Assembly: GCA_023382715.1 (NCBI GenBank)
Contig: JAHDWP010000004.1
Span: forward strand, 1-64,000
DNA: 64,000 nucleotides
Reading direction: 5' to 3'
Source of the DNA: Anaerolineae bacterium
GTDB taxonomy: Bacteria; Chloroflexota; Anaerolineae; Aggregatilineales; Aggregatilineaceae
Made by a program: the position numbers and the translations under genes. Each line of letters begins with the position of its first letter. Position 1 is the stretch's first letter. Of this stretch, positions 1,515-21,748 are shown piece after piece. The notes beneath the pieces are model-generated. The model did not search any database. It saw only the letters and a list, made by a program, of their open reading frames with translations, and was not told where the DNA came from.

Positions 1515-2780
1515 ATGCGAACGCGAACCGTGATTCTGGCTGGAGGAGAAGGTAGTCGCCTGGGGGTGCTCACTGCCAAGCGTGCCAAGCCGGCGGTGCC
1601 TTTTGCCGGCAAATATCGCATCATTGATTTCGCGCTGAGCAATTGCGTCAATTCTGGCCTCTTCGACGTGCTGGTGCTCACCCAATATCGCCCGCACAGC
1701 CTCAATGAGCATATCGGCCTGGGCCGTCCCTGGGACCTCGACCGTTCGTTCACCGGCGGGGTGCGCCTGCTGCAGCCGTTCCAGGGCCGCCAGGATACCG
1801 ACTGGTACGCGGGCACGGCGGACGCTGTCACCCAGAACATCAACTTCATCCGCGGTGATGGGGTGCGCAATATCCTCATCCTTTCGGGCGATCACATCTA
1901 CGAGATGGACTACGATATGCTGATCAAGTACCACGAGGGGCAGGGAGCCGACGCCACGGTGTGCGTCATCCGCGTCCCGCGCGACGAAGCGTCCCGCTAT
2001 GGCATCATGGCTGTGGATGAACACAACCGCATCATAGATTTCGTAGAAAAGCCGCCCGATCCGCCCGGCGATCTGGCCAATATGGGCGTTTATGTTTTCC
2101 GGCTTGACGTGCTGGAAAACCTGCTGCGCGAGGATGCCGCGCGGACGGATTCACGTCACGACTTCGGCTACAATATCATCCCGCGCATGATGGAGCTGGG
2201 CATGAAGGTGATGGCCTTTCCCTTCGGCGGCTATTGGATTGACGTGGGGACGATTGACGCTTACTGGGAAGCGCATATGGATCTGCTGGATTTGCCGCCG
2301 TCGCTGGACCTCAATGACCGTTCGTGGATCATCCACACGCGCTCTGAGGAACGCCCGCCCGTGCGCATTGACCGGGGCGCGATCATCGAAGATAGCATGA
2401 TCACCGATGGCTCGATCATCTGCGCGGGCGCGCGCGTAGTACGCAGCGTTCTGTCGCCTGGGGTCTTCGTCGGCCCGAACGCCGTCGTGCGCGAAAGCGT
2501 GATCCTGACCGATAGCTACATCGAGCGTGATGCCGTGATCGAGCGTGCGGTCATTGACAAGGGCGCAGTCGTGGGGCAGGGCGCGCGCGTCGGGCAGGTG
2601 ACCGCGCTCGGCGACCTGGCTATTACCTGCATCGGCAAGAACTCGACCGTCCCGCCTGGGTTTGTGGTCGGGGAGGGGTGCGTGCTCGGCGTTGATCTGC
2701 GCGCAGACGAAGTCACGGCGCAGTATCCGGGCGGCGTCATCCCCGCCAACTCGCACATCATCTATCGCCTGGCCCGATAA
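1515..2780 (+). CDS. glgC: Glucose-1-phosphate adenylyltransferase (ADP-glucose pyrophosphorylase)
   Basis: Makes ADP-glucose from ATP and glucose-1-phosphate, the committed step of bacterial glycogen synthesis, in the cytoplasm. The 421-residue length is typical. The N-terminal nucleotidyltransferase domain shows GGEGSRL, then [29 protein letters not shown] and [10 protein letters not shown]. The last third is a left-handed beta-helix of hexapeptide repeats. The start has an AGGAG site 10 bases upstream. Glycogen debranching enzyme and a glycogen-binding protein lie just downstream on the other strand, so this is a glycogen locus, but synthase and branching enzyme are not in the window. Confidence 0.95.
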
Positions 2781-2808
2781 CCCGGACTGCTCAGCGCGCA
2801 AGCTGCGG

Positions 2809-2837
2809 CGGGGTGTGCGCGAGCGCACCCCGTTTCT
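2809..2837 (+). terminator. Intrinsic terminator after glgC
   Basis: Stem CGGGGTG (2809-2815) pairs with CACCCCG (2826-2832) and is followed by TTTCTG. It lies 29 bases after the glgC stop, between convergent genes. Confidence 0.6.
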
Positions 2838-2854
2838 GCGCTATAGGGTCCGGC

Positions 2855-3484
2855 TCAGGGGGCGGCGGCGCTGTCCAGCGCGGCGCGCTGCTCGAAGATG
2901 ACGCTGGCCAGCATGCGCTCGCAGTCCCCGGCGCTGAAGACGATCTCGACCGGCGCGGACAGGTAGCGCCCTGTCCCCGCCAGTTGTACCCACACCCGCC
3001 GGTTGATGCCCCCGGCAACGGCCAACTGCCAGTGACCGGCCTCATGACCGGCGATCTCGCCGGTGAGCAGCAGGCGCGGAGCCACGTAATCGCCCCAGGC
3101 CAGCACGGCCAGGGCATCGGTGGGCTGGCCGCCGCTGTCCAGGATGCTGCCGGTGACGACGTGCTCTGCACACGAGTCGCCAGGGCGAAAGCTGGGCGAG
3201 TCGTTGCTGGGGACGAAAGGATACTCTCCGCTGACCAGCGCCGTGCCCGGCTCTGGAGACGGCGCAAAGTCGGACTGCACGAAGTACATGCCGGGGGCCA
3301 GCGCAGTCAGCGTGGCCGCAAAATCGGACTCCCGGCTGGCTTCCTGCGCGTTGGCCAGGAGGATGATCAGCATTGCAGCGGTCAGCATGCCCAGGAAGAG
3401 CAGCACCGTGCCGGCCAGCATCAGCCGATAAGCGCGGCTGGATGGCGGGGCAGAGCCGGTCACTGAATACGACTCATCAGCCAT
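2855..3484 (-). CDS. Membrane-anchored extracytoplasmic protein of unknown function
   Basis: 209 residues. A short cytoplasmic N terminus precedes one hydrophobic helix at about residues 20-46, so most of the chain should be outside the membrane. The body contains two cysteines (FRPGDSCAEH and SAGDCERM) and short beta-like stretches, but no motif I recognise. It lies convergent to glgC and 220 bases downstream of the debranching enzyme on the same strand. A link to glycogen is only positional. The start codon is the first ATG, MADESYSV. Confidence 0.55.
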   Translation of the reverse strand: MADESYSVTGSAPPSSRAYRLMLAGTVLLFLGMLTAAMLIILLANAQEASRESDFAATLTALAPGMYFVQSDFAPSPEPGTALVSGEYPFVPSNDSPSFRPGDSCAEHVVTGSILDSGGQPTDALAVLAWGDYVAPRLLLTGEIAGHEAGHWQLAVAGGINRRVWVQLAGTGRYLSAPVEIVFSAGDCERMLASVIFEQRAALDSAAAP

Positions 3485-3576
3485 AGGAGTCCCTCAGGTA
3501 ATCTCGCAAGCGCACGGCCCGTACAGGCTGGCGGGAGCCTGCCGGTAGCTGCTCACCTGTCTTCCCCCATTCTAAA

Positions 3577-3646
3577 CCCCTCCCCCGCAAGGAGGGAGGG
3601 GCTTAAGACCGGCGCTCTGCTCCCTTCCCCCCTCGTGGGGGAAGGG
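3577..3646. repeat. Pair of C/G-rich palindromes
   Basis: Two perfect hairpins lie side by side. CCCCTCCC (3577-3584) pairs with GGGAGGGG (3594-3601), and CCCTTCCCCC (3622-3631) pairs with GGGGGAAGGG (3637-3646). Related C/G-rich palindromes occur elsewhere in the window, for example near 21.8 kb. They look like dispersed intergenic repeats and may also act as transcription terminators. Confidence 0.6.
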
Positions 3647-3703
3647 TTGGGAATGGGGGGCTGGGCCAGGCCAGGCTGTATGCTCGTTTTCGCTCTGGTG
3701 CAC

Positions 3704-5713
3704 TTAGCCCTTGCCCGCCTTCAACCCTGGCTCCAGGGCGCGATAAGCGCGCAGTGCTTCGGCCACGCTCCACGCCTGCGCGACCGCTCCGCGCGGCTGG
3801 TGGGGCGGGTCGCCGTCGAAGATTTCGCCGAGCGTACCCAGCCCTTGATCGGCCAGATGGTCGGCCAGCGGCTCCAGATAGCTGAAGGCGGTGCGCGCCT
3901 TGCCGTAGACGCGATAATGGGCGATGGCGAATGGCCCCAGCAGCCAGGCCCAGGCGGTTCCCTGGTGATAGGCGCTGTCGCGCTGCAAGGGGTCGCCGCC
4001 GTAGTGCCCGGCGTATTCGCTTTCGTCAGGGGCCAGGCTGCGCAGCCCGTAGGAGACCAACAACTCGCGCGCGCAGATGTCCACCACGGCCTGCGCCCGC
4101 TCGCCTTCCAGCAACGGGAAGGGCAGCGCGACGGCGAAAATCTGGTTGGGGCGCAGCGTTGGATCGTCGCCATCCGGCCCGTCCACCACGTCGTACAGGT
4201 AGCCCCCATTGTACCAGAAACGCCGGGCGAAACTCTCTTGGGCACGGTCGGCCAGGGCCGTGTACTGGGCGGCGTCCTCGTCATGCCCCAGGGCAGTGGC
4301 CAGCTCTGCGGTGATGCGCAGGGCGTTGACCCACAGCGCGTTGATCTCCACCGCCTTGCCAACGCGCGGCGTCACCACCCAGTCGTCAATCTTGGCGTCC
4401 ATCCAGGTGAGCTGCAGGCCAGGCTCACCCGCAAAGAGCAGGCCATCTGCCGGATCCATGCGGATGTTGTAGCGCGTCCCCTCGACGTGCCAGCGCAGGA
4501 TGTCGGTCAGCACGGGGTATAAGTCCTGAAAGAGCGGATCGCCGGGGCCGGTCGCCCGAAAGTGCGCGTAGACCGCCTGGAAATACCACAGCGTGGCGTC
4601 TACAGTGTTGTATTCGGGCGCGCTGCCCGCGTCTGGGAAGCGATTGGGCAGCATCCCCTGGTCCACGCAGCGGGCATAGGTGCGCAGAATCTCGGCGCTC
4701 TCCGCGACGCGCCCGACGGCCAGGGTCAGGCCGGGCAGGGCGATCATGGTGTCGCGGCCCCAATCGCTGAACCAGGGATAGCCGGCCAGGATGCTTTTGC
4801 CCGGCGTGCCGTTCATATCGCGCGTGACCAGGAACTGGTCGGCGGACAGGGCGAGCTGGCGAATCCAGGCCGGCGCGTCGGCCAGCCCGGCGCCGGTGAG
4901 CAGCGCGCTCTGGCGTTGCTGCTCGGCGAGCAGCGCATCGTGCCAGGGGGCCGGGTCGCTCTCTTCGGCGGTTAAGACGAGGGCCAGGGTGCTGCCCAGG
5001 TCCAGCTCGGCGATGAGGGTCGCCGCGGCGAAGAGGTCTTCCTGGTCGCCCAGGCCGCGCCGCTTTTCTTCGGAGAGATGGAAAGACCACCACCACTCAG
5101 CATCGGGGACGATGGATCCCTGGTTGGCGAAGATACGCAGGGTGCTGCTTTCGCTGTTATTGCGATCCGGGTGCTGGATGACGCGCACGCCAGCCCCGCA
5201 CGACCAGGGGGCGGGGATAGAAGTCACTTCGACCGGGTAGCCCCCTTTGGTCAGCTTATGGTGATCGCGGCAGGTGCACAGCGGCTTGATGATCAGCTTG
5301 AGGTGTGCGGTGCCGCGCACGTAAGAATACGTGACGTAAGCTGTATTGTGGCCGTGCGCCATCCAGATGCGCTGCACCAGGCGTACATCGCCCAACCCCC
5401 ACACGAAAACGGGGATGGATCCTTCCAGGTGAAAGCTTTCTAAGTGGCGATAGCCGTCTGGCAGCACGACGCCCGCTGCCCATTCATGGGTCACCAGGGG
5501 CGAGCGGCGCCCGTCAATCTCCACCCAGGTGTCGAGATCGGCGACGAGCACAGTGCGGCGGGTGGGGGGCTGGAGCGAGGCGGTGAACAGGCTGTGGTAG
5601 CGGCGTGTGCGCGCCCCCGCCAGCGACCCCAGCGCATAGCCGCCGATGCCGTTGGTGACGAGCCATTCGCGGCGCAGCAGCGCATCAAGCGTGTCACGAC
5701 CAAAGTGGATCAT
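3704..5713 (-). CDS. Glycogen debranching enzyme (amylo-alpha-1,6-glucosidase type)
   Basis: Hydrolyses alpha-1,6 branch stubs in glycogen or other storage glucans in the cytoplasm. The 669-residue chain has the two-domain layout of the prokaryotic GDE family. An N-terminal beta domain (about 1-270) starts with EWLVTNGIGGYALGSLAGA. The C-terminal alpha/alpha-barrel carries GYPWFSDWGRDTMIALPGL at 311-329, the family signature with acidic catalytic-site residues. It is transcribed in the same direction as the CBM48 gene 156 bases upstream, with a hairpin between them. glgC is convergent. This supports a glycogen synthesis and breakdown cluster. Confidence 0.92.
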   Translation of the reverse strand: MIHFGRDTLDALLRREWLVTNGIGGYALGSLAGARTRRYHSLFTASLQPPTRRTVLVADLDTWVEIDGRRSPLVTHEWAAGVVLPDGYRHLESFHLEGSIPVFVWGLGDVRLVQRIWMAHGHNTAYVTYSYVRGTAHLKLIIKPLCTCRDHHKLTKGGYPVEVTSIPAPWSCGAGVRVIQHPDRNNSESSTLRIFANQGSIVPDAEWWWSFHLSEEKRRGLGDQEDLFAAATLIAELDLGSTLALVLTAEESDPAPWHDALLAEQQRQSALLTGAGLADAPAWIRQLALSADQFLVTRDMNGTPGKSILAGYPWFSDWGRDTMIALPGLTLAVGRVAESAEILRTYARCVDQGMLPNRFPDAGSAPEYNTVDATLWYFQAVYAHFRATGPGDPLFQDLYPVLTDILRWHVEGTRYNIRMDPADGLLFAGEPGLQLTWMDAKIDDWVVTPRVGKAVEINALWVNALRITAELATALGHDEDAAQYTALADRAQESFARRFWYNGGYLYDVVDGPDGDDPTLRPNQIFAVALPFPLLEGERAQAVVDICARELLVSYGLRSLAPDESEYAGHYGGDPLQRDSAYHQGTAWAWLLGPFAIAHYRVYGKARTAFSYLEPLADHLADQGLGTLGEIFDGDPPHQPRGAVAQAWSVAEALRAYRALEPGLKAGKG

Positions 5714-11589: not shown

Positions 11590-12561
11590 ATGGAAATCAT
11601 CCCAGGCATAGTCGCTGGCGTCTTGCTGGTGGGCATTCTGCTGGCCGTGCTGTTTGAGTACCGCATCCGCCAGCCGGATGTCATTATGCTGTATGAGTCG
11701 AAGGGCCAGATCGGCGTCCGCAAGGGGCTGCTCTGTCCGCGCCACTTCAGCCTGCCGCTGAAGCGCACGACTTATCCTCTCCAGCTTTCGGTCGAGGCCG
11801 CTGCTGCAGGGAACCTGCTCGTGCTCGTCAAGCTAGTCGGCTCTGCCGCGCCGTCCGTCGAGCATATCCAGGCGTTGATTCGGGTCGGCGGATGGGACAG
11901 TGAGGCAGTGGCGCGCGCGGTGGATCAGGTCAGGATTCTGTTGCAGGGGCTGGTCAAGGAGTACACCGAGCGCTCCGACATTCACGCCATCTCTTCGCCT
12001 GGCATCCTGCAGCACCTGGACGAGCACCTGCCGGCCATCGAAGAGAAGTTCGGCCTGGAGTTGATCTCGCTGGCCGTCCAGTCATTGGAGCCAGCGGACC
12101 CGAAGATCGCTGAAGCGCTCCGCCAGCAGGAAGAGGCGCGCCTGCTCGAACGCACGGAGCAACTGAATCACCAGGCGCGCGTCGTGGCTGCCAGGGCCAG
12201 ATACCAGGCCGATGAAGAGATCGCCGAGATGGAGCACGCCCTGGAACTGAAGCGGGCCGACCTCAAGAGAACCCAGTTTGAGCGCGACGCGGCGCTGGCC
12301 CGCCAGCGTATCGAAGACGAGCTGGCCCGCAGCCGCCTGCGCCTCGCCTTCGAAAAGGAAGAGCTGGACGTACTGCGCGGCAGCCCGGAGCTGCTGATGC
12401 TGACGCCGCAGGCGGCCCGGCTGGCCGAAGCGAGCCAGGGCCTGAAGAACGCCCGGACGGTCATCTCCCTGACGCCGCAGGAGCTTGCCAACGGGTCGGT
12501 GCTCTTCACCCTGTTCCGGGATCTGTTGCAGAAGCACCTGGATGCGCCGGATGAGGCGTAG
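11590..12561 (+). CDS. SPFH/band-7-like membrane protein with coiled coil
   Basis: 323 residues: one N-terminal hydrophobic helix (about 4-23), a beta-rich SPFH/stomatin-like domain (about 25-180), then a long charged helix (about 180-265) with heptad character, and a short tail. VARAVDQVRILLQGLVKEYT and the helix of FGLELISLAVQSLEPADPKIAEAL match the end of an SPFH domain. Such proteins form oligomeric membrane scaffolds. It lies 64 bases upstream of the giant aminotransferase/PEPC-like gene on the same strand, which suggests joint expression and possibly membrane recruitment of that enzyme. Confidence 0.7.
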   Translation: MEIIPGIVAGVLLVGILLAVLFEYRIRQPDVIMLYESKGQIGVRKGLLCPRHFSLPLKRTTYPLQLSVEAAAAGNLLVLVKLVGSAAPSVEHIQALIRVGGWDSEAVARAVDQVRILLQGLVKEYTERSDIHAISSPGILQHLDEHLPAIEEKFGLELISLAVQSLEPADPKIAEALRQQEEARLLERTEQLNHQARVVAARARYQADEEIAEMEHALELKRADLKRTQFERDAALARQRIEDELARSRLRLAFEKEELDVLRGSPELLMLTPQAARLAEASQGLKNARTVISLTPQELANGSVLFTLFRDLLQKHLDAPDEA

Positions 12562-12625: not shown

Positions 12626-15600
12626 ATGCCCCATCTACCTGATCCAATGGCGCTCTTCCGCCTCAAGCCGATCCGGGCAGCGCGCGTCTCCGAGGTCAGC
12701 GAGACCACAGCGGCGGCGCCCGTCCCGGCGGAGGAGCGCATCAACTTTCACATCGGCAACCCGCTGCAGGACGCGCGCATGTCCTCGGCTTTTCTGCGCA
12801 CGGCCCTCGGCCTGGACATCCGCCAGGAGGAGCTGAGCGACGCCGAGCCAGAAGCGATCCTGGAGCATCTGGGGTGGGAGGCGGCAGACCGGCCCAGGCT
12901 CGATTTCCTCATCCGCGCCATCAAAAAGAGCGCCCCCTACATGCCCAGGGGAGGGTACTCGCCCAGGGCGCGCCACCCTGTCGTCGAAGCGTTCTGCTCA
13001 TGGCTGGAGCACCAGCAGGAGACGCTGCATTATGACACCGGCGAGCAGTCGGGTCGCCGCGAGATCATCCTGGCCTCTGGCGGGCTTGGCGAGACGCTGC
13101 GCGTCATCCTGTTCACCCTGTCGTCGTACCTGGAAACCACGCCCGCGCGCATTCTGTGTTATGGCTGCGACCTGATGCCAGCTCTCAAAGCGCTGCCCGG
13201 CCTGCTGTTTGAAGACCTGCCAGCGGACGAGCAGCTCGCCTGCGAGCGCGTCGAGCAGCTTCTGACGGGCCAGCCCTCTACGCCCACCTTCCTGGTGATT
13301 GGCCGCGTGCTCGGCGAGACGACGCGGCGCTGGCTGCGCCTGGTGAGCATCGAGTGGCCGCTGTTCTTCATCGAGGCGAACAACGCGCCCAACCATCTCT
13401 CGCTGGCCCGCGAGGCCAAGCTGGTTCAGCGCGTCGTCCGGCTGCTGACTCCCGCCATCTTCTCGCCGCGACTGCACGCGCTCTCGACGGTGTTTGTGGC
13501 GGGCAATGCCGATTTGCTGAGCGCGGTGGAAAACGTGCACTTCAGCCTGAAAGGCACGCCTTCTGCGTCCGAAGTCGAGCTGCTGGTCTTTCTGCTCGAA
13601 CAGCATCTTGCCGGACCCTTGCAGGCCCCTCCGCCAGCGATGCCGGAGACTCGCCCCCCCTTTGAAGGGCTGACGCTGGCTGGTGCCGCCGAGATGGCCC
13701 TGCCACATCTGGCCGAGCACGCCGGGGAGCGGCTGGAAGCGCTGCTGGAGGCTCACGCGCAGCGGCTGGAGCATTCGCTGCGCGTGCTGGACGACAAGGC
13801 GGCGCTCTTTACGCAGCGTATGCAGAGCGCGTGGGGCGATCGGCTTTTCGACGAGTTCGCCACCCTGGAGGTGCGGGAGCTGCTCGATCTGCTCATCGAG
13901 AACCTGCACCGACCGGAGACATCCCAGGCATTTCAGCGCAGCTTCCTGAGCGCCTTCGTGCGGCACCAGTCCCAGTACCAGCCGGAGTCATGCCTGGTGA
14001 CCAGCGGCTCTTCGCGCACGGCGCTGGGCATCATCGGCTTTCACTGCGGCATCAGCGAAGTGATCATCCCCGACCTGAGCTGGTCCTACGAGCAGTGCTT
14101 CCCCACGGTATATGCCGTGCCGCTGACCGAGGCGCTGGAGCTTGACGCCGAGGCCATGATCGCCAGGGTCGAGGAGCTTTGCCGGCGCGATCCGTCGTGG
14201 CGGGAGCGAGGGGCGATTGCCCTCAACAACCCGCACAACGCCACCGGGCGCGTCTTCGGCGAGGACGCCGTGCGCAGGCTGCTCGCCTATTGCCTGGAGC
14301 GCGGCATCTACGTCATTGACGACCTGGCCTACCAGAACGTGGCGCCGGTGGACGGTCTGCCCGAAATCAAGACGGTGCGCCAGATGGTGACGGAGATGGT
14401 GCGGCTGGGAGTGGCCGACGAGCGCTGCGCCGACCGCGTGATCACCGTCCATTCCATGTCGAAGACGGACTGCCTGGCCGGGGCCAGGCTCGCCGTTGTG
14501 GAAATCCGCGACCGGGCACTGCGCGAGCGCTTCGCCGAGATCAACGCGCATATCCAGCCCAACATCGCCGCCATCTTCATCTGCTATCTGTTCTATCGCG
14601 GCGCGACGCAGGCTGTGCGCACGTACTGGCACTTGCGCAACGCCATTTACGGCGAGCGGACGCGCGCCTTGCTCGCCGCCGTAGAGAATCTGCCGCCAGA
14701 CCGCAATCCATTCCGCCTGGAGATCATCCCGCCGACGGGCAGCATGTACCCGCTGCTGCACATCGGGGTTTTGCCCGCCGGCCTGTCGTTGGACTGGCTG
14801 GCCTCGTCTCTGGCGCGGCAAGGCATCGGCCTGCTGCCCCTGGCGACGTTCGCGCGCACTGAGAAGGGCTTCGAGACGGGGCGGACGACGTTCCGCCTGA
14901 CGCTGGGCGGCGTGGACAACGCCGAAACGCTCCTGATCAAGACGCGCCGCCTGCTGATTGACCTGAACCGCCTGATCGCCGAAGAAGATGCGCGTTACAA
15001 CCGCAAGCGCCCGCCGCTCAGGCCGGCAGGAAACGGGAGCGATCGATCGTCTGAGCTGACCCACGCGATGGACAGCGTCGCCGGGCAGATCCTGCAATGG
15101 TGCGAGAACAGCCGCGCCAGCCGCCGCCTGATGTCTATGCTCCTGCTGGACGGCGAGCAGGTGCGGCGCGAGTTTGTGCGGCGCTATGCGCCTGAGCGGC
15201 TGGAAGCCTTCCGCACTCGCCTGCTCGACCGGGCGCGGATCAGCGACGAGCTGATGCGCCAGGCGTTAGGCGACGGGGGCAAGCGCCTGGCCGAAAGGCT
15301 TGAGCGGGAGTTCATGAAGGACTCCCTGGAACGGCGGCAGGAATTATTCCGGCTGCGCTCGTATGACCGGACGGTGCACCCCACGCAGATGTATTCGCTG
15401 GGGGCGGAGCTGGCCCTGGACGCCATCCTGAAGGCGCTGATCGCTGGCCAGCCGGTGCCAGCGGCGCATATCGAAGAGGCCGCGCGCGCCCTGCTGCAGG
15501 AATATCTGGGGCTGAATGTCAGCATCTCCTCGCGGCAGGAGACCGACGAAATCCTGCTGGACCTGGCCGCGCTGACGGCGGGCGAGCAGTATTCTGAGTT

Positions 15601-18244
15601 GTTCACCGGCGCGACCCTGACGCCCTTCCTGTCGTTCTGGAGCGACTGGGACGGGAGCAACCGGCCCTCCGGGCAGGGGCACCAACTGGCTGCGGCGGTG
15701 GTCATGGAGAACGTGCGGCGCATGGCGCATATTCTGGGCCTGCTGCGGCAGGTCGTCCCAGATGTTGCCATCAGCCCCGACCTGCTCTCCGAACTCGACC
15801 GGCTCGATCAGCGCAACCAGCGCTTCACCCAACTCCTGAACGCCATCACCCAACTGACTCACCAGTTGGAGCGGCGCTACCGGGGCATTCTGCCCTTTTC
15901 GGTGGACACCACGCCTCTGCGGCAGCTCGCCACGCGCTGGCATCTGCGCCGCGATCCGGCCAAGGTACTCTGGCAGCACAACGATCGCTATGAGCAGAAG
16001 ATGCTTGAGATGCGGCAGGAACGGCGCCAGATGCTGGAGCACTACTTCGCGCTGAACAAGAAGCTGCGCAAGCAGTTGCACGCCCTGATCCCGACCATTC
16101 AGGCGCACCGCACGAGCGAGCGCCTGCTGCGCGAGGTGGTGGGGTATCGGGATATTCTCCAGCGCGTGGTCATCACCCCGCGCATTCAGCAATCGCTGAT
16201 CACGGCGCGCGACCAGTTCGCCATCAACACCACCGTCTACAACACGCACGAGATCAACACCGTCTCCGGCCAGTACGGCAACCCAGGCATGGCGCTGGCC
16301 GTGCAGATCAGCCTGTCCACCAGGCCGGAGACGCTCATCTCGCTTGACCGGAAGATGCGCACCCAGCTGGAGCAGGCGCGGCGCGAGCATCCAACAGCGG
16401 ACCTGCCGTCGGTCTGGCTGATCCCCCTGTTTGAGAGCGTGGAGGCGGTCGAGAACATCCGGGGCTACCTGGATCAGGTGTGGGACTATGCCATGCAGAG
16501 TCGCCACACCGCCCAGTCTGCGCAGAGTCGCTTCACCGAGATGATCTGCGAGGTGTTTGTGGCCGGTTCCGATCTGAGCCAGCAGGTCAGCCAGGCGGCG
16601 GCGGCTTTTCTGTACCAGAAGGCGACGTTCGATGTCCAGTCGTGGCTGGTCGAACACGGCACCGCCGAAAGCGTGCGCGTCAAGCTGGGCAGCGGCGAAC
16701 CAATGCAGCGCCAGGGAGCCTACTACTCGCGCGTGGCGGGCGTCCCCGCTTTTCAGGATTCTGCGCTCAACAGGCAACGCTTCGCCGAGCACCTGCTGGC
16801 CGCCGCGCGCAAAAGCACAGCCTATGCGGTGACGCCCCTGCAGGGCGTCTTCCTGGGCGGCGAACTGCGCACGTTTCAGAGCAACCTGGCGGAGCAGTTG
16901 CGCTTCCTGCCCGCCCGCGACCTGGTCGGCCTGCTGTATCATGTGCGGGAATCGCAGGAGATTCACCGCGCCGACCTGATCCGCGCCGCAGAGATGGCCG
17001 CCGAAACCCGCCTGGTGGCGCGGAGCCGGAGCCTGCACGAGCTGGAGCGCCTGACCATCGGGGCCAGCGAAGCGCCTTACGAGCAGTTCCTCGAAGAGAT
17101 GACCGACAGCTTTCGGCACATCCTCTATGGCGGTGAAGAAGACGTGATCGGTCTGCACATTATCTCATACTTCATCGCCCGCTCCATGCCTCAACTGCGC
17201 GATCGCCCCACCAGCCGGCAGTCGTTGGGGACGGGGACGGAGCGCGGGCAGCGCATCCTGGCCAACATCGCCGAGATCATCCCCCTGTCGAAGCACGGCA
17301 GCTTGCTGCGGGCTATCGCGCACAACCAGGCGCAGACGGCGGTGCTGGGCGTCAACCAGCTTACGACCGGGCTGTTCCGCGCCCTCGAACGCTTCGCCCA
17401 GAAAGCGTTTGTCGAGGCGGAGCAAGAGCGCCTGATCGCTGAGCGATTGCTGCCACACCTGCCCGTGTACGAGATTCTGCACACGCTGCGCGTCTACCAG
17501 GATCACGAAGGGACATTCCTGCACGCTGTCGAGACGGCGTTCCCGGCGGGCAACTCGGCTTTTGTGGCCCTGCGCGAAGATAACGACGCCCTGAGGCGCT
17601 ACCTGCCGCTCGTCCAGCAGGAGCTGCTGCGCCGTCATGGCGTGAGCGTCCGCGAGTTCTTCAGCAACGGGGCGCTCATCCCGGACCTGCTGCCGACGCT
17701 GCGGCCCGATCTTGCCGTCCTGCTGCAGAAAGACCTGTTCAACACCGACATCGAGGCGATGCTGGACGATGTTTCGGGGAAGATCGCCGATGACTGGCGG
17801 ACAGAGGTCAGTCGGCTGCTCCAGGTGCCGCGCCAGATTGATCATTGGCGCTCGATCATCTGGGACGTGATCGGCGACTCGATCTACCAGCGCGTGCAGA
17901 GCTTCGCTGAGCTGGCGACGGCGCTCTATTCCTTCGCCGGGACGCGCTCGCTCAGCGCGGCGCCGCCCCCCGCGACACGCGGGACGCAGTTGTCTCCCGT
18001 GTTGGCGGGATTTTTCCGCACTGCCCGCGCCGATGACGAGATGCGCGGCTTTCTGATCGGCGCCATCGAGTATCTGCGCTCCTTCACCGATGGCAACCTG
18101 GAGATGCCCGTCAGCATCATCCGGGCCATGAACGATGTCGAGCGCCTGGCGCAGATCGAAGAGACGGCGCTCCCGCCCGAAAAGCAGAACCTCTTCCGCC
18201 ACTGCGCGCTGCAGATAGCCCGTCTGGCGGGCGAGAGCGGGTAG
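12626..18244 (+). CDS. Giant fusion: aminotransferase-like segment, PLP aminotransferase, PEP carboxylase-like C terminus
   Basis: 1872 residues. Residues about 38-330 resemble a fold-type-I aminotransferase but lack the lysine. Residues about 430-790 form a complete class I/II aminotransferase: NPHNATG at 535-541, DDLAYQ with Asp566 and Tyr569, and SMSKTD with the PLP lysine Lys613. The rest is PEP-carboxylase-like, with TVHPTQ (His918), DWDG (1007-1010), IPLFES (1266-1271), GSD (1314-1316) and GSGEPMQRQG (1355-1364). These correspond in order and roughly in spacing to TAHPTE, GGDRDGNP, PLFET, GYSDSAK and GRGG of bacterial PEPC. The catalytic Lys of GYSDSAK is Gln1319 here and GRGG is not conserved. 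PEPC makes oxaloacetate and an aspartate aminotransferase converts it to aspartate, so channelling is conceivable. Activity of either part is unproven. Confidence 0.7.
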   Translation: MPHLPDPMALFRLKPIRAARVSEVSETTAAAPVPAEERINFHIGNPLQDARMSSAFLRTALGLDIRQEELSDAEPEAILEHLGWEAADRPRLDFLIRAIKKSAPYMPRGGYSPRARHPVVEAFCSWLEHQQETLHYDTGEQSGRREIILASGGLGETLRVILFTLSSYLETTPARILCYGCDLMPALKALPGLLFEDLPADEQLACERVEQLLTGQPSTPTFLVIGRVLGETTRRWLRLVSIEWPLFFIEANNAPNHLSLAREAKLVQRVVRLLTPAIFSPRLHALSTVFVAGNADLLSAVENVHFSLKGTPSASEVELLVFLLEQHLAGPLQAPPPAMPETRPPFEGLTLAGAAEMALPHLAEHAGERLEALLEAHAQRLEHSLRVLDDKAALFTQRMQSAWGDRLFDEFATLEVRELLDLLIENLHRPETSQAFQRSFLSAFVRHQSQYQPESCLVTSGSSRTALGIIGFHCGISEVIIPDLSWSYEQCFPTVYAVPLTEALELDAEAMIARVEELCRRDPSWRERGAIALNNPHNATGRVFGEDAVRRLLAYCLERGIYVIDDLAYQNVAPVDGLPEIKTVRQMVTEMVRLGVADERCADRVITVHSMSKTDCLAGARLAVVEIRDRALRERFAEINAHIQPNIAAIFICYLFYRGATQAVRTYWHLRNAIYGERTRALLAAVENLPPDRNPFRLEIIPPTGSMYPLLHIGVLPAGLSLDWLASSLARQGIGLLPLATFARTEKGFETGRTTFRLTLGGVDNAETLLIKTRRLLIDLNRLIAEEDARYNRKRPPLRPAGNGSDRSSELTHAMDSVAGQILQWCENSRASRRLMSMLLLDGEQVRREFVRRYAPERLEAFRTRLLDRARISDELMRQALGDGGKRLAERLEREFMKDSLERRQELFRLRSYDRTVHPTQMYSLGAELALDAILKALIAGQPVPAAHIEEAARALLQEYLGLNVSISSRQETDEILLDLAALTAGEQYSELFTGATLTPFLSFWSDWDGSNRPSGQGHQLAAAVVMENVRRMAHILGLLRQVVPDVAISPDLLSELDRLDQRNQRFTQLLNAITQLTHQLERRYRGILPFSVDTTPLRQLATRWHLRRDPAKVLWQHNDRYEQKMLEMRQERRQMLEHYFALNKKLRKQLHALIPTIQAHRTSERLLREVVGYRDILQRVVITPRIQQSLITARDQFAINTTVYNTHEINTVSGQYGNPGMALAVQISLSTRPETLISLDRKMRTQLEQARREHPTADLPSVWLIPLFESVEAVENIRGYLDQVWDYAMQSRHTAQSAQSRFTEMICEVFVAGSDLSQQVSQAAAAFLYQKATFDVQSWLVEHGTAESVRVKLGSGEPMQRQGAYYSRVAGVPAFQDSALNRQRFAEHLLAAARKSTAYAVTPLQGVFLGGELRTFQSNLAEQLRFLPARDLVGLLYHVRESQEIHRADLIRAAEMAAETRLVARSRSLHELERLTIGASEAPYEQFLEEMTDSFRHILYGGEEDVIGLHIISYFIARSMPQLRDRPTSRQSLGTGTERGQRILANIAEIIPLSKHGSLLRAIAHNQAQTAVLGVNQLTTGLFRALERFAQKAFVEAEQERLIAERLLPHLPVYEILHTLRVYQDHEGTFLHAVETAFPAGNSAFVALREDNDALRRYLPLVQQELLRRHGVSVREFFSNGALIPDLLPTLRPDLAVLLQKDLFNTDIEAMLDDVSGKIADDWRTEVSRLLQVPRQIDHWRSIIWDVIGDSIYQRVQSFAELATALYSFAGTRSLSAAPPPATRGTQLSPVLAGFFRTARADDEMRGFLIGAIEYLRSFTDGNLEMPVSIIRAMNDVERLAQIEETALPPEKQNLFRHCALQIARLAGESG

Positions 18245-18434: not shown

Positions 18435-19223
18435 CTAGGCCCCGTTCGTGCGGCGGGGCATGATCGCCCGCGCCGCGTTCTTCTCGTTGTAGATGACCTC
18501 AACTGGCATCTCGTAGGCCGTGGAGAGCACCGGCTCGGTGAGCACCTCGGCGGGCCGGCCATCGGCTACGATGCGCCCTGCCTTCATCACGACGACGTGA
18601 TGGGCGTAGAGCAGGGCGCTGTTAGGGTTGTGCGAGGAGATCACGAACGACACGTTCTGCCCGGCCAACTGGCTGACCGTCTCCAGCACGCGGTGCTGGT
18701 TGCGCGGGTCGAGATGCGCCGTCGGCTCGTCGAGCAGCAGAACTTCCGTCTGCTGAGCCAGCCCCCGCGCGATGAGAGTGAGCTGGCGCTCGCCACCGCT
18801 CAACCCGGTGTACGGGCGGTCGCGCAGCGCCGCCAGCCCGACCTGCTCGATGGCTGCGTCCACAATCGCCCGGTCGCGCGCCCCCGGCGTGCCGAACAGG
18901 CGCAGGTGCGGCGTGCGGCCCATCATCACCACGTCGCGCACAGTGTAGGCGAAGACGGGCAGGTGCATCTGCGGCACCAGCCCCACTCGCTGGGCGCGCC
19001 TGGCCGAAGAAATGTGGTAGAGATCGTGCCCGTTCAGGCGGACGCTGCCCGCTTGCGGCGGGCGGATGCCGCTCAGAATTTCGAGCAGCGTGGTCTTGCC
19101 GCAGCCGTTGTGCCCCAGCAGGTAGATCACCGACTGATCGGGGACGGCCAGGCTGACATCGCTCAGCACGGCCTGCTGAGCGATGTAGCTGTAGGAGACT
19201 GAGCGGGCTTCCAGCAGGGTCAT
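18435..19223 (-). CDS. ABC importer ATPase (FecE/BtuD type)
   Basis: 262-residue ATPase energising the FecCD-type permease encoded immediately upstream. Walker A is GHNGCGKTT (37-45), the signature is LSGGE (141-145), Walker B is LLLDEP (162-167), and the switch histidine is in ISSHNPN. The ATG at 19223 overlaps the permease TGA (ATGA), which favours it over a GTG two codons earlier. Ligands of this importer class include ferric siderophores, heme, cobalamin and molybdate; the sequence does not decide among them. Confidence 0.92.
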   Translation of the reverse strand: MTLLEARSVSYSYIAQQAVLSDVSLAVPDQSVIYLLGHNGCGKTTLLEILSGIRPPQAGSVRLNGHDLYHISSARRAQRVGLVPQMHLPVFAYTVRDVVMMGRTPHLRLFGTPGARDRAIVDAAIEQVGLAALRDRPYTGLSGGERQLTLIARGLAQQTEVLLLDEPTAHLDPRNQHRVLETVSQLAGQNVSFVISSHNPNSALLYAHHVVVMKAGRIVADGRPAEVLTEPVLSTAYEMPVEVIYNEKNAARAIMPRRTNGA

Positions 19224-20287
19224 CGCCACCCCGTCCGGTTGACGCGCAGGATGACCAACAGCAGCGGCACCCCCACCACGCCGGTGAAGACGCCCAGCGG
19301 CACCTCGGCTGGCAGCAGTGTGCGCGACATGGTGTCAATGAGCAGCAGGAACACCGCGCCCAGGGCCATCGTCGCCGGGATCAGGCGCTGGTGATCGGGG
19401 CCGACCAGCGTGCGCGCCGCGTGGGGGATGACCAGCCCCACCCAGCCGATCACCCCGCCGACCGACACGGCCATCGCCGTCATCAGCGTGCTGCACACGA
19501 TGATCAGCAGCTTGAGCCGCGTCGGATTGAGGCCCAGGGCCAGCGCCTCGTTGTCGCCCATCGAGAGCACGTTCAAGCGCCAGCGCACGCCCCACAGCAC
19601 GACCATCCCCAGCAGCGAGATCGCGGCGAGCGCCGGGATGTCGCCCAGCGTGACATCGGTCAGCCCGCCCATCAGCCAGTAGGTGATCGCGGGCAGCGTA
19701 TCCAGCGGGTCGGCCACGTACTTGAGCAGCGAGGTCAGGGACGAGAAGAACGACCCGACGAGGATGCCGACCAGAGTCAGGACGAGCAGCGGCGCGCTGT
19801 GATACAGGCGGCTGACGGAGTAGGCCAGCAGCACCGCGACCAGCCCGACGAAGAAAGCCGCAAGCTGCACCTCCAGCGGGTCGCCCACCAGCAGCAGCAT
19901 CAGCGCCGCGCCGAACCCGGCCCCAGACGTGACCCCCAGGATGTTGGAGTCCACCAGCGGGTTGCGGAAGATGCCCTGGAAGGTGGCCCCGGTCACGGCG
20001 AGATTGGCCCCGATAAACATGGCGGCAGCAATGCGCGGCAGGCGCACGCGCGTCACCAGGTTGTAGACAATGTCCGGCCCGGCGCTGGCATCGTGACGGC
20101 CCAGGGCGAAATCCAGCAGCGCGCGGACAACGTCCTCGGTCGGGATGGCATAGCGCCCCAGGCCGATGCAGTAAATGGCCGCCGGCAGGGGCAGCAGCAG
20201 AATCAGCAGGTAGAGGGCTTTCTGGCGGTGCTCTGCGTGCAGCCAGACGCACGCGCCAGGCAGCCAACGGCTCAGGATGGGCGTCAC
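19220..20287 (-). CDS. FecCD-family ABC importer permease
   Basis: 355-residue inner-membrane protein with about ten hydrophobic helices, as in BtuC/FhuB/FecCD permeases. Family segments include RLPRIAAAMFIGANLAVTGA, the GVTSGAGFGAAL helix and GVIGWVGLVIPHAARTLVG near the cytoplasmic coupling loop. It starts at GTG 20287, whose last bases overlap the binding-protein TGA (GTGA), and ends overlapping the ATPase start. The three genes are therefore a tightly coupled operon. Confidence 0.93.
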   Translation of the reverse strand: MTPILSRWLPGACVWLHAEHRQKALYLLILLLPLPAAIYCIGLGRYAIPTEDVVRALLDFALGRHDASAGPDIVYNLVTRVRLPRIAAAMFIGANLAVTGATFQGIFRNPLVDSNILGVTSGAGFGAALMLLLVGDPLEVQLAAFFVGLVAVLLAYSVSRLYHSAPLLVLTLVGILVGSFFSSLTSLLKYVADPLDTLPAITYWLMGGLTDVTLGDIPALAAISLLGMVVLWGVRWRLNVLSMGDNEALALGLNPTRLKLLIIVCSTLMTAMAVSVGGVIGWVGLVIPHAARTLVGPDHQRLIPATMALGAVFLLLIDTMSRTLLPAEVPLGVFTGVVGVPLLLVILRVNRTGWR

Positions 20288-21699
20288 TTACAGATACTCT
20301 GCGCTTCCCCTTCGCTCATCACGTAGCCGTAGAACAGGCGATAGAAGGTCATCGTTTCGGCGGCGCAGTCGAGACTCATCTGATCCGGGTAGAGCGTCTG
20401 GGCGATCCAGATGATCCCCAGGATCGAGTCGGGCACGGGCGTGTCCCAGGGCGCGGACAGCTTGGGCAGGCGGTAGACGCGACCCTCGTAGACCGCGCGG
20501 ATAGCCGACCATTCCGCCGCGCCAGTGAACGCCTCGACGTTGGCCCCGCCATAGGGCACGAAGAGGATCACGTCCGGGTCCCAGACAGCGACCTGTTCCA
20601 GGTTGACATCGTTCCAGTAGCCGGTCAGGTCTGCCGTGACCGAGATTGCCCCCGCCGCTTCGACCATAGCCGTCTGGTACATGTCGCCGCTGGCGACGCG
20701 CAGGGGATTCGTCCCGGAGAAATAGACGCGCACCGGCTCGGCAATAGTCTGCGTCTGGGCCAGGATCGCGTCCAGGGTGCGGCTGTAGTAGGCGTTGAAC
20801 TGCTCCGCCTGGTAAGCCGCGTGCGGGCCGAGCACCGCGCCGAGCAAGGTCATGGCGTCCTGCAGGGCCTCTGGCGACTCTCCTTCAAAGCGCAGGATGG
20901 ACACGCCCAACGCCGCCGCCGCGTCGAGCCAGCTTGTGCGCGCGCTGGCCAGGATCAGGTCCGGGTGCAGGGCGGCCAACTCTTCGATGTTGGCTTCCTG
21001 CTGGTTGAGCGTCGAGACGGCGTTGGCAATCGTCTCGAAGTTCGGGTCGAGCTTCAGCATCCCCGCCTTGCCTTCGGGATCGCGCGCGCCCAGGTAACCC
21101 GCTGCCACGAGCCGATCCGCTGCGCCCACTCCGTAAACGTAATAGGTGGCGATGCTGTAGGGAGAGGCGATGCGCCACACAGGCTGAGGCACGCGGACGG
21201 TGGCCCCCGACTGGTCCACGATCTCGACGACGGCGGGCAGCAGCCCCAGATCAATGGCGAGCTGCTGCCCGGCGGGGCTGATGGCAAAGCGCAGAAAGTC
21301 GCGCGCCAGCGCATCACGGGGGTCGAGCACCCCGCTGCACGAATTGCTGGCCAGGTAGCGCGCGCCCAGGCCGGGCAGCAGCATGAAGACATCGCTGATG
21401 TAGCCACACTCAAAGGCGATGGGCGGCGTTTCTTCATAGGTATCGCTGATGATGACCGCGGCTTCGCCCGCCCGCGCCATAATTTCGCTCGCCGTTGCGA
21501 CGAATCGCAGGTCGAGCGCAGCGCCGCCTTCCATAGAAGCGAAGGCGGCGGCCCACGCCTCGACCGGCTCGCGCGCTGATTCCAGCGCCAGCACAACCGG
21601 GCCATCGGCGGCCTGGGCCTGCGCCGGCACGACGCCCGGCGCGGCAGCTCCCACAAGCAGCACAACCAGCAGTCCATAGAACCATGTTCGCTTGACCAT
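20284..21699 (-). CDS. ABC importer binding protein, apparently chimeric (PstS/ModA-like plus BtuF/FhuD-like)
   Basis: 471 residues with an N-terminal signal peptide ending near PAQAQA. Residues about 30-150 look like part of a class-II binding protein, especially ARDFLRFAISPAGQQLAIDLGLLP in two halves. Residues about 190-470 form a class-III (BtuF/FhuD) domain with the long linking helix and the WDPDVILFVPYGG segment. Class-III proteins partner FecCD permeases, as encoded next door. ATG 21699 has AAGGAG upstream. The extra N-terminal module is unusual and may alter ligand choice. Ligand unknown. Confidence 0.75.
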   Translation of the reverse strand: MVKRTWFYGLLVVLLVGAAAPGVVPAQAQAADGPVVLALESAREPVEAWAAAFASMEGGAALDLRFVATASEIMARAGEAAVIISDTYEETPPIAFECGYISDVFMLLPGLGARYLASNSCSGVLDPRDALARDFLRFAISPAGQQLAIDLGLLPAVVEIVDQSGATVRVPQPVWRIASPYSIATYYVYGVGAADRLVAAGYLGARDPEGKAGMLKLDPNFETIANAVSTLNQQEANIEELAALHPDLILASARTSWLDAAAALGVSILRFEGESPEALQDAMTLLGAVLGPHAAYQAEQFNAYYSRTLDAILAQTQTIAEPVRVYFSGTNPLRVASGDMYQTAMVEAAGAISVTADLTGYWNDVNLEQVAVWDPDVILFVPYGGANVEAFTGAAEWSAIRAVYEGRVYRLPKLSAPWDTPVPDSILGIIWIAQTLYPDQMSLDCAAETMTFYRLFYGYVMSEGEAQSICK

Positions 21700-21748
21700 T
21701 CGGGTATCTCCTTTCGGGTATCTTCTTAGAATGCGCAGCAAAATGCGC

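Follow-up and report, generated by a model that had tools for sequence, protein, structure and literature searches.

A bacterial fusion of aminotransferase domains with a highly diverged PEPC-like part, encoded beside an SPFH-like gene

We describe a gene family whose products join a degenerate aminotransferase (AT) domain, a catalytic AT domain and a long C-terminal part that resembles phosphoenolpyruvate carboxylase (PEPC). Both this architecture and the homology to PEPC are, in our judgement, very probable. The family was recognized in a window of 64,000 nucleotides, the whole stretch of DNA that was analysed, in which the fusion gene lies directly downstream of a gene for an SPFH/band-7-like protein. 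The parts of this two-gene module are as follows.

11590-12561, forward strand: predicted SPFH/band-7-like membrane protein of 323 aa, the obligate upstream partner (Band_7 is the top Pfam family)
12626-18244, forward strand: fusion gene, 1872 aa, comprising pseudo-AT, AT and PEPC-like parts
12626-13615, forward strand: residues 1-330, the pseudo-AT, a degenerate large domain of an aminotransferase that lacks the PLP lysine and aspartate (AF2 model, hhalign)
13616-13897, forward strand: residues 331-424, a variable linker together with a long helix; identity averages 32% across residues 331-420
13898-15010, forward strand: residues 425-795, fold-type-I aminotransferase (PF00155, Foldseek, hhalign)
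14228-14248, forward strand: residues 535-541, NPHNATG motif (N535, P536, H537, N538 and G541 invariant in 37 proteins)
14462-14464, forward strand: Lys613, in SMSKTD, the PLP Schiff-base lysine (invariant in 37 proteins)
14978-18241, forward strand: residues 785-1872, the modelled PEPC-like part, in which resemblance to PEPC starts at about residue 800 (PEPCs account for all 16 significant PDB matches)

The fusion gene and its relatives

The open reading frame comprises 1872 codons from an ATG, without an internal stop, and occurs once in the source genome (3.88 Mb, 98.6% complete). The original prediction, which was made from the sequence, had suggested looking for the same architecture in other genomes, and 36 full-length or nearly full-length relatives were found, with identities of 45-80%, in MAGs of Anaerolineae, Ignavibacteria/Bacteroidota and Acidobacteria. 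Together with the window protein, these constitute the 37 full or nearly full proteins of the family alignment. A scan of GTDB species genomes yielded 34 fusion loci (52-79% identity), predominantly in Anaerolineae MAGs and otherwise in MAGs labelled Ignavibacteriae, Bacteroidetes or Acidobacteria; organism labels are those of the database records. Every full-length match had the identical architecture, and no stand-alone PEPC-like part was seen among the fusion-family matches. Phages yielded no copy of this part, and plasmids no full-length copy.

The distribution of the fusion in the sampled genomes was patchy. Counting full-length matches only, it occurred in 3 of 301 genomes of the Chloroflexota sample, the source genome included. 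It was present in 11 of the 61 genomes that comprise the source genome and its close relatives, and in the phyla of the Ignavibacteria and Acidobacteria MAGs it was found in 12 of 297 and 3 of 297 sampled genomes, respectively. Two MAGs (L016 and L147) carried the fusion as two ORFs, split near residues 1476 and 1237, respectively, which represents either an assembly frameshift or a true break. Among MAGs of the Acidobacteria sample, the fusion of L148 (1792-8336) begins at residue 226, the first 225 residues being absent in frame, and that of L149 (2282-9373) has a deletion at residues ~1360-1370, in the loop that carries Arg1362.

In five pairwise comparisons, dN was 0.13-0.18 and dS 0.70-2.7, corresponding to dN/dS values of ~0.07-0.20, for which the larger dS values are near saturation. 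The fusion ORF is real, intact and under strong purifying selection. These ratios and the invariance of the PEPC core residues disfavour the alternative, raised in the original prediction, of a huge degenerate enzyme. Its further remark that no described protein of this kind was known to its author agrees with our search of the open-access literature, in which no published description of such an AT/PEPC-like fusion was found.

The aminotransferase domains and the SPFH-like partner

Residues 443-764 matched PF00155 with an E-value of 4e-17 (62.8 bits versus a cut-off of 19.7) and NCBIfam likewise indicated an aminotransferase; no close AT subfamily was identified for the fusion, all NCBIfam scores being far below cut-off. 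According to Foldseek, the domain shares the fold of LysN and aspartate aminotransferases (E ~1e-14 to 1e-12), and profile-profile comparison with class I ATs using hhalign gave 99.8%. Residues N538, D566, Y569, S612, K613, R621 and R757, the PLP-site residues expected of the AT family, were invariant in the 37 fusion proteins. The complete PLP aminotransferase that had been predicted is thus borne out.

The AF2 model of residues 1-795 was of good quality (pLDDT 83, pTM 0.82). In this model, the strands of the catalytic AT lie at residues 456, 478, 494, 529, 562, 605 and 622, and seven strands at residues 147, 174, 193, 221, 246, 270 and 289 of the N-terminal domain repeat their order. Two weak profile comparisons in hhalign agreed on the register, aligning G226RVLGE...FFIE250 with G541RVFGE...VID565. 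At the position equivalent to the PLP aspartate, D566, the window protein has A251, and A, V, I, L, G or F occurs across the family. No conserved lysine was present at the PLP-lysine position of this domain in the 37 proteins; the sole invariant lysine in residues 200-330, K309, lies beyond the strand expected to bear it. Residues 1-330 constitute an additional aminotransferase domain that has degenerated. Class I aminotransferases normally function as dimers, and the pseudo-AT may serve as a pseudo-subunit, so that a single chain would complete the AT dimer.

In each of the 37 full loci, the SPFH-like gene directly precedes the fusion and has the same orientation. The gap is usually <60 bases; in the L148 and L149 loci, the two ORFs are separated by 440-580 bases. 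The partner proteins share 41-82% identity among loci, and their divergence parallels that of the fusion (r = 0.93 for pairwise distances over 35 loci). Of 22 partner proteins, 11 had Band_7 (PF01145) as their best Pfam family (lowest E-value 0.0045), with scores short of the cut-off; the window protein likewise scored under the PF01145 cut-off (12.5 bits versus 23.6). As read from the sequence, the protein appears to comprise an N-terminal hydrophobic segment, an SPFH-like domain and a coiled-coil-like helix. According to a survey of prokaryotic SPFH proteins (PMC2636767), one SPFH subfamily is likewise missed by most programs; neither the word aminotransferase nor the word carboxylase appears in the text of that survey.

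Apart from the SPFH-like gene, no neighbour of the fusion was conserved across loci. In the window, genes for an ABC importer of the FecCD type, comprising an ATPase, a permease and a periplasmic binding protein, lie downstream at 18435-21741 on the reverse strand; a glycogen-debranching enzyme and a nucleotidyltransferase that contains hexapeptide repeats are encoded upstream at 1515-5713. The ABC and glycogen genes were rejected as partners as they are not conserved beside the fusion. Anti-phage defence was considered in view of the patchy, two-gene pattern; the fusion had no PADLOC match and that of the SPFH-like protein was at chance level (E 0.12).

The PEPC-like part

Residues 785-1872 were modelled from an alignment of fusion relatives only, which contained no PEPC. 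The model was of moderate confidence (pLDDT 67.9, pTM 0.69). In a Foldseek search of 350,542 PDB chains, all 16 matches with E ≤ 1e-3 were PEPCs, the best at 1.8e-6, and they spanned bacterial/plant (6u2t, 1jqn and 1fiy) and archaeal-type (3odm) enzymes; the first non-significant match had an E-value of 0.33. The superpositions were loose (TM 0.22-0.46, rmsd 16-21 Å), and the fold argument leans on the exclusivity of the matches and their E-values rather than on the TM-score. The C-terminal half had been predicted to be PEPC-like from its motifs, and the structure search likewise matched it to PEPCs exclusively. No search placed it in another family with high probability and the PEPC TIM barrel is present in the predicted fold.

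Sequence comparisons were less uniform. Single-protein and first-alignment searches of residues 785-1872 against Pfam, NCBIfam and PDB profiles returned no match. The best Pfam family of the C-terminal part was PF14010 (PEPcase_2, archaeal-type PEPC), detected in 2 of 25 members with an E-value of 0.0015; no match exceeded the curated cut-off, and the window protein had none. PF00311 did not appear among the listed families (E ≤ 10) in either of the two 25-member sets. The hhalign tests of the family were weak (P 0.011-0.02). The family profile and that of bacterial PEPC had the PLFE, SD and loop blocks in register, albeit weakly; the score of 32.1 compares with a mean of 24.1 and a maximum of 37.8 in 120 block shuffles. 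The colinear motif chain against bacterial PEPC alone was equalled in 19 of 300 shuffles and so is not beyond chance, and local profile alignment reached z ~1.9 at best, falling near zero with stiffer gap costs.

After these weaker tests (block-shuffle, motif-chain and local alignment) had failed, we devised a column test, in which the fusion family, bacterial PEPCs and archaeal-type PEPCs were aligned using MAFFT without anchors. Twenty-four near-invariant columns were identical in all three groups, versus 4-17 in 40 shuffles in which the family columns were permuted in blocks of 20. The shared columns include T916, H918, P919, P1267, L1268, E1270, S1315 and D1316, as well as G1355, G1357, R1362, R1562-A-I and the C-terminal G1872. 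As motif order against bacterial PEPC alone is no proof, the case is made by the fold search, the PF14010 match and the three-group alignment. By these data, the assignment of residues ~800-1872 as a highly diverged PEPC homologue is well supported. The mean core identity of this part within the family was 0.64, versus 0.67 for the AT domain.

The predicted active-site elements of the PEPC-like part are as follows.

15371-15382, forward strand: TVHP 916-919, equivalent of the PEPC catalytic-His motif (TAHP or TQHP)
15644-15655, forward strand: DWDG 1007-1010, equivalent of DRDG (bacterial) or DxEG (archaeal), aligned in the third of three settings only
16175-16183, forward strand: TPR 1184-1186, candidate counterpart of the strand that carries Arg396 in E. 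coli (ITPRIPNP in the archaeal type), from a hand alignment
16424-16435, forward strand: PLFE 1267-1270, metal-ligand glutamate motif, from the three-group alignment
16565-16573, forward strand: GSD 1314-1316, metal-ligand aspartate motif, from the three-group alignment
16688-16711, forward strand: GSGEPMQR 1355-1362, equivalent of the loop GRGGSIGR, with Arg1362 equivalent to the PEP-binding arginine
17309-17317, forward strand: RAI 1562-1564, equivalent of Arg713-Ala-Ile, aligned in two of three settings
18239-18241, forward strand: Gly1872 at the C-terminus, counterpart of the terminal glycine of PEPC, invariant in 37 proteins

The motifs named in the original prediction (NPHNATG, Lys613 in SMSKTD, HPT at 918, DWDG at 1007-1010, PLFE at 1267-1270 and GSD at 1314-1316) all lie at the residues given there. 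The spacing of HPT and PLFE is similar to that in PEPC, as had been claimed, although the ~352 residues given for the fusion become 349; the canonical PEPC of the source genome has 364 (H136 to P500, L065), and ~368 had been given for E. coli PEPC. Overall, the prediction is partly supported: it had read both halves of the fusion correctly and had missed the pseudo-AT domain, the obligate SPFH-like gene and the archaeal-type pattern of the active site described below, while the formation of oxaloacetate and aspartate that it proposed for an active chain is more tentative.

His918 is invariant in the family, as are Glu1270 and Asp1316, and all three align with both PEPC types. The Glu of PLxE and the Asp of SD are the metal ligands of PEPC; residue numbers of the bacterial enzyme are those of E. 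coli. Arg1362 occurs in 36 of 37 proteins, the exception being the deletion, and was aligned in all three settings; Gly1872 was aligned with the archaeal group in two of three. The proposed assignment of R1186 as the Arg396 equivalent, on barrel strand 3, fits the hand alignment and the strand order of the model, and is missed by automatic alignment. In PEPC, the histidine is the catalytic base and the loop arginine binds PEP, the latter having been suggested to be pulled to the active site by the C-terminal glycine (PMC3894211). The reaction proceeds by formation of carboxyphosphate and an enolate, followed by carboxylation (PMC8100219).

Three residues of the bacterial enzyme are replaced. 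The position of Lys546 is Q1319 in the fusion family and L, M or T in archaeal-type PEPCs; that of His579 is L1354 (L or M in the family) and I or L in the archaeal loop; and that of Arg581 is S1356 (S or C in the family), where the archaeal loop has small or aliphatic residues. We considered reading a loss of catalysis from these replacements and dropped it: archaeal-type PEPCs also lack the three equivalents, and loss of activity is therefore not inferable. As aligned, the predicted active site of the fusion follows the pattern of archaeal-type and not of bacterial-type PEPC. The retained residues fit a working enolate-forming enzyme and do not indicate its substrate.

Possible function and comparison with known systems

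A canonical PEPC (L065) is encoded elsewhere in the source genome, and such an enzyme was also present in 14 of 25 fusion-bearing genomes, a count in which some matches are fragments and the MAGs are possibly incomplete. Because the two coexist, the fusion does not simply replace the canonical enzyme, nor is it simply the anaplerotic enzyme of these genomes. Archaeal-type PEPC (L150-L153 and L180-L188) occurred in a minority of Chloroflexota genomes, most having the bacterial type or none. One relative (L094, G328:C77) encodes a second, divergent PF00311 PEPC that is 33% identical to the source-genome copy, as well as an ordinary PEPC.

The data above support the fold assigned to each part and the purifying selection, and show that the catalytic residues are conserved and that the two genes are always paired. 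Building on them, we tentatively propose that the module is a membrane-associated bifunctional enzyme comprising an SPFH anchor, a pseudo-dimeric AT and PEPC-type chemistry, a reading that, taken whole, we consider plausible and somewhat short of probable. The SPFH-like protein would anchor and probably oligomerize at the membrane, retaining the large protein there, and the pseudo-AT would pack on the catalytic AT domain as a second subunit otherwise would. The PEPC-like barrel would bind a divalent metal via Glu1270 and Asp1316 and generate or capture the enolate of a three-carbon keto acid, in the simplest case converting PEP and HCO3- to oxaloacetate. The PLP site at Lys613 could then use glutamate to transaminate the keto acid so formed; in the simplest case oxaloacetate would become aspartate, and the intermediate may be channelled between the two sites. 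That PEP carboxylation is coupled to transamination at the membrane in this way is slightly more tentative still. The most specific version, a third PEPC class that exists only as a membrane-tethered AT fusion with a pseudo-subunit and an SPFH scaffold and makes aspartate from PEP, bicarbonate and glutamate, is rather unlikely.

The PEPC-like part may instead act on another substrate, as a metal-dependent lyase, decarboxylase or carboxylase for a keto acid that is the product or substrate of the AT, PEP carboxylation having been lost. We regard this as doubtful, albeit a possibility of some weight. The superfamily of the PEPC-type barrel includes many enolate chemistries, the part has diverged extremely from both PEPC types, invariant family-specific residues surround the barrel (e.g. 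Q1319, E1358, RPSGQG 1013-1018 and H1566-N1567), and the coexisting canonical PEPC is in keeping with a different role. However, the residues common to bacterial and archaeal PEPCs have been kept, R1362, R1562 and the C-terminal glycine among them. The same conservation bears on the suggestion that catalysis is confined to the AT, with the PEPC-like and pseudo-AT parts having a regulatory or structural role, for instance as membrane-located sensors of PEP, aspartate or bicarbonate. The clear degeneration of the N-terminal AT indicates that domain decay happened here at least once, the equivalents of K546, H579 and R581 are missing, and an SPFH partner would suit a scaffold or signalling role. 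Yet the catalytic His and the metal ligands, together with the loop Arg and the C-terminal Gly, are constant in the 37 proteins, bar one loop-deleted MAG copy. There would be little reason for a mere binding domain to require the whole catalytic set, and the core identity is as high as that of the AT domain. We consider this suggestion improbable.

Finally, the resemblance to PEPC could be superficial, the part being some other large helical TIM-barrel protein with chance motifs. The empty single-protein profile searches would be compatible with this, as would the several sequence-only tests that came out at the 2-7% level or worse. The idea is largely refuted, and very improbable, given that the fold matches are exclusively PEPCs, that PF14010 is the best Pfam family and that the common invariant columns outnumber those of every shuffle.

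If the proposed bifunctional enzyme is correct, the family would be a third, far-diverged branch of PEPC beside the bacterial/plant and archaeal types, which are two strongly different kinds (PMC8100219). By keeping the residues common to both, it would sharpen the definition of a minimal PEPC active site. It would also join anaplerotic carbon fixation and amino-acid synthesis in a single chain, and its SPFH-like partner would provide an example of a defined cargo in a membrane-scaffold family that, in bacteria, has few clearly established roles.

Each component has known counterparts. Archaeal-type PEPC (PF14010, 3odm) has in common with the fusion the fold, THP, DxEG/DxDG, PLFE(D) and RSD/GSD, and further GxG-4x-R, LxRAI and the C-terminal glycine; like the fusion family, it is without equivalents of bacterial Lys546, His579 and Arg581. 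By contrast, it is a stand-alone protein of ~490 residues, whereas the PEPC-like part of the fusion has ~1080 residues with extra helical parts, is fused to AT domains and has only remote sequence similarity to the archaeal enzyme. Bacterial/plant PEPC (PF00311; 1jqn, 6u2t) resembles the PEPC-like part in fold, size, and motif order and spacing; the fusion differs in having no PF00311 match, in the absence of the three active-site residues and in its AT, and the canonical copy is encoded separately in the genome. Residues 425-795 share the PLP residue set and the fold of fold-type-I class I/II aminotransferases (PF00155; LysN and the Thermus and Thermotoga aspartate aminotransferases), but, unlike these, the fusion AT belongs to no close subfamily and has a degenerate copy in the same chain as its partner domain. 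Known SPFH/band-7 proteins (PF01145, PMC2636767) have a hydrophobic N-terminus, a coiled-coil-like helix and a conserved operon. The partner here also lies in a conserved operon and, as read from its sequence, appears to have the other two; its Band_7 match is weak. Known SPFH operons pair with NfeD homologues, whereas in the present module the partner is the AT/PEPC-like fusion.
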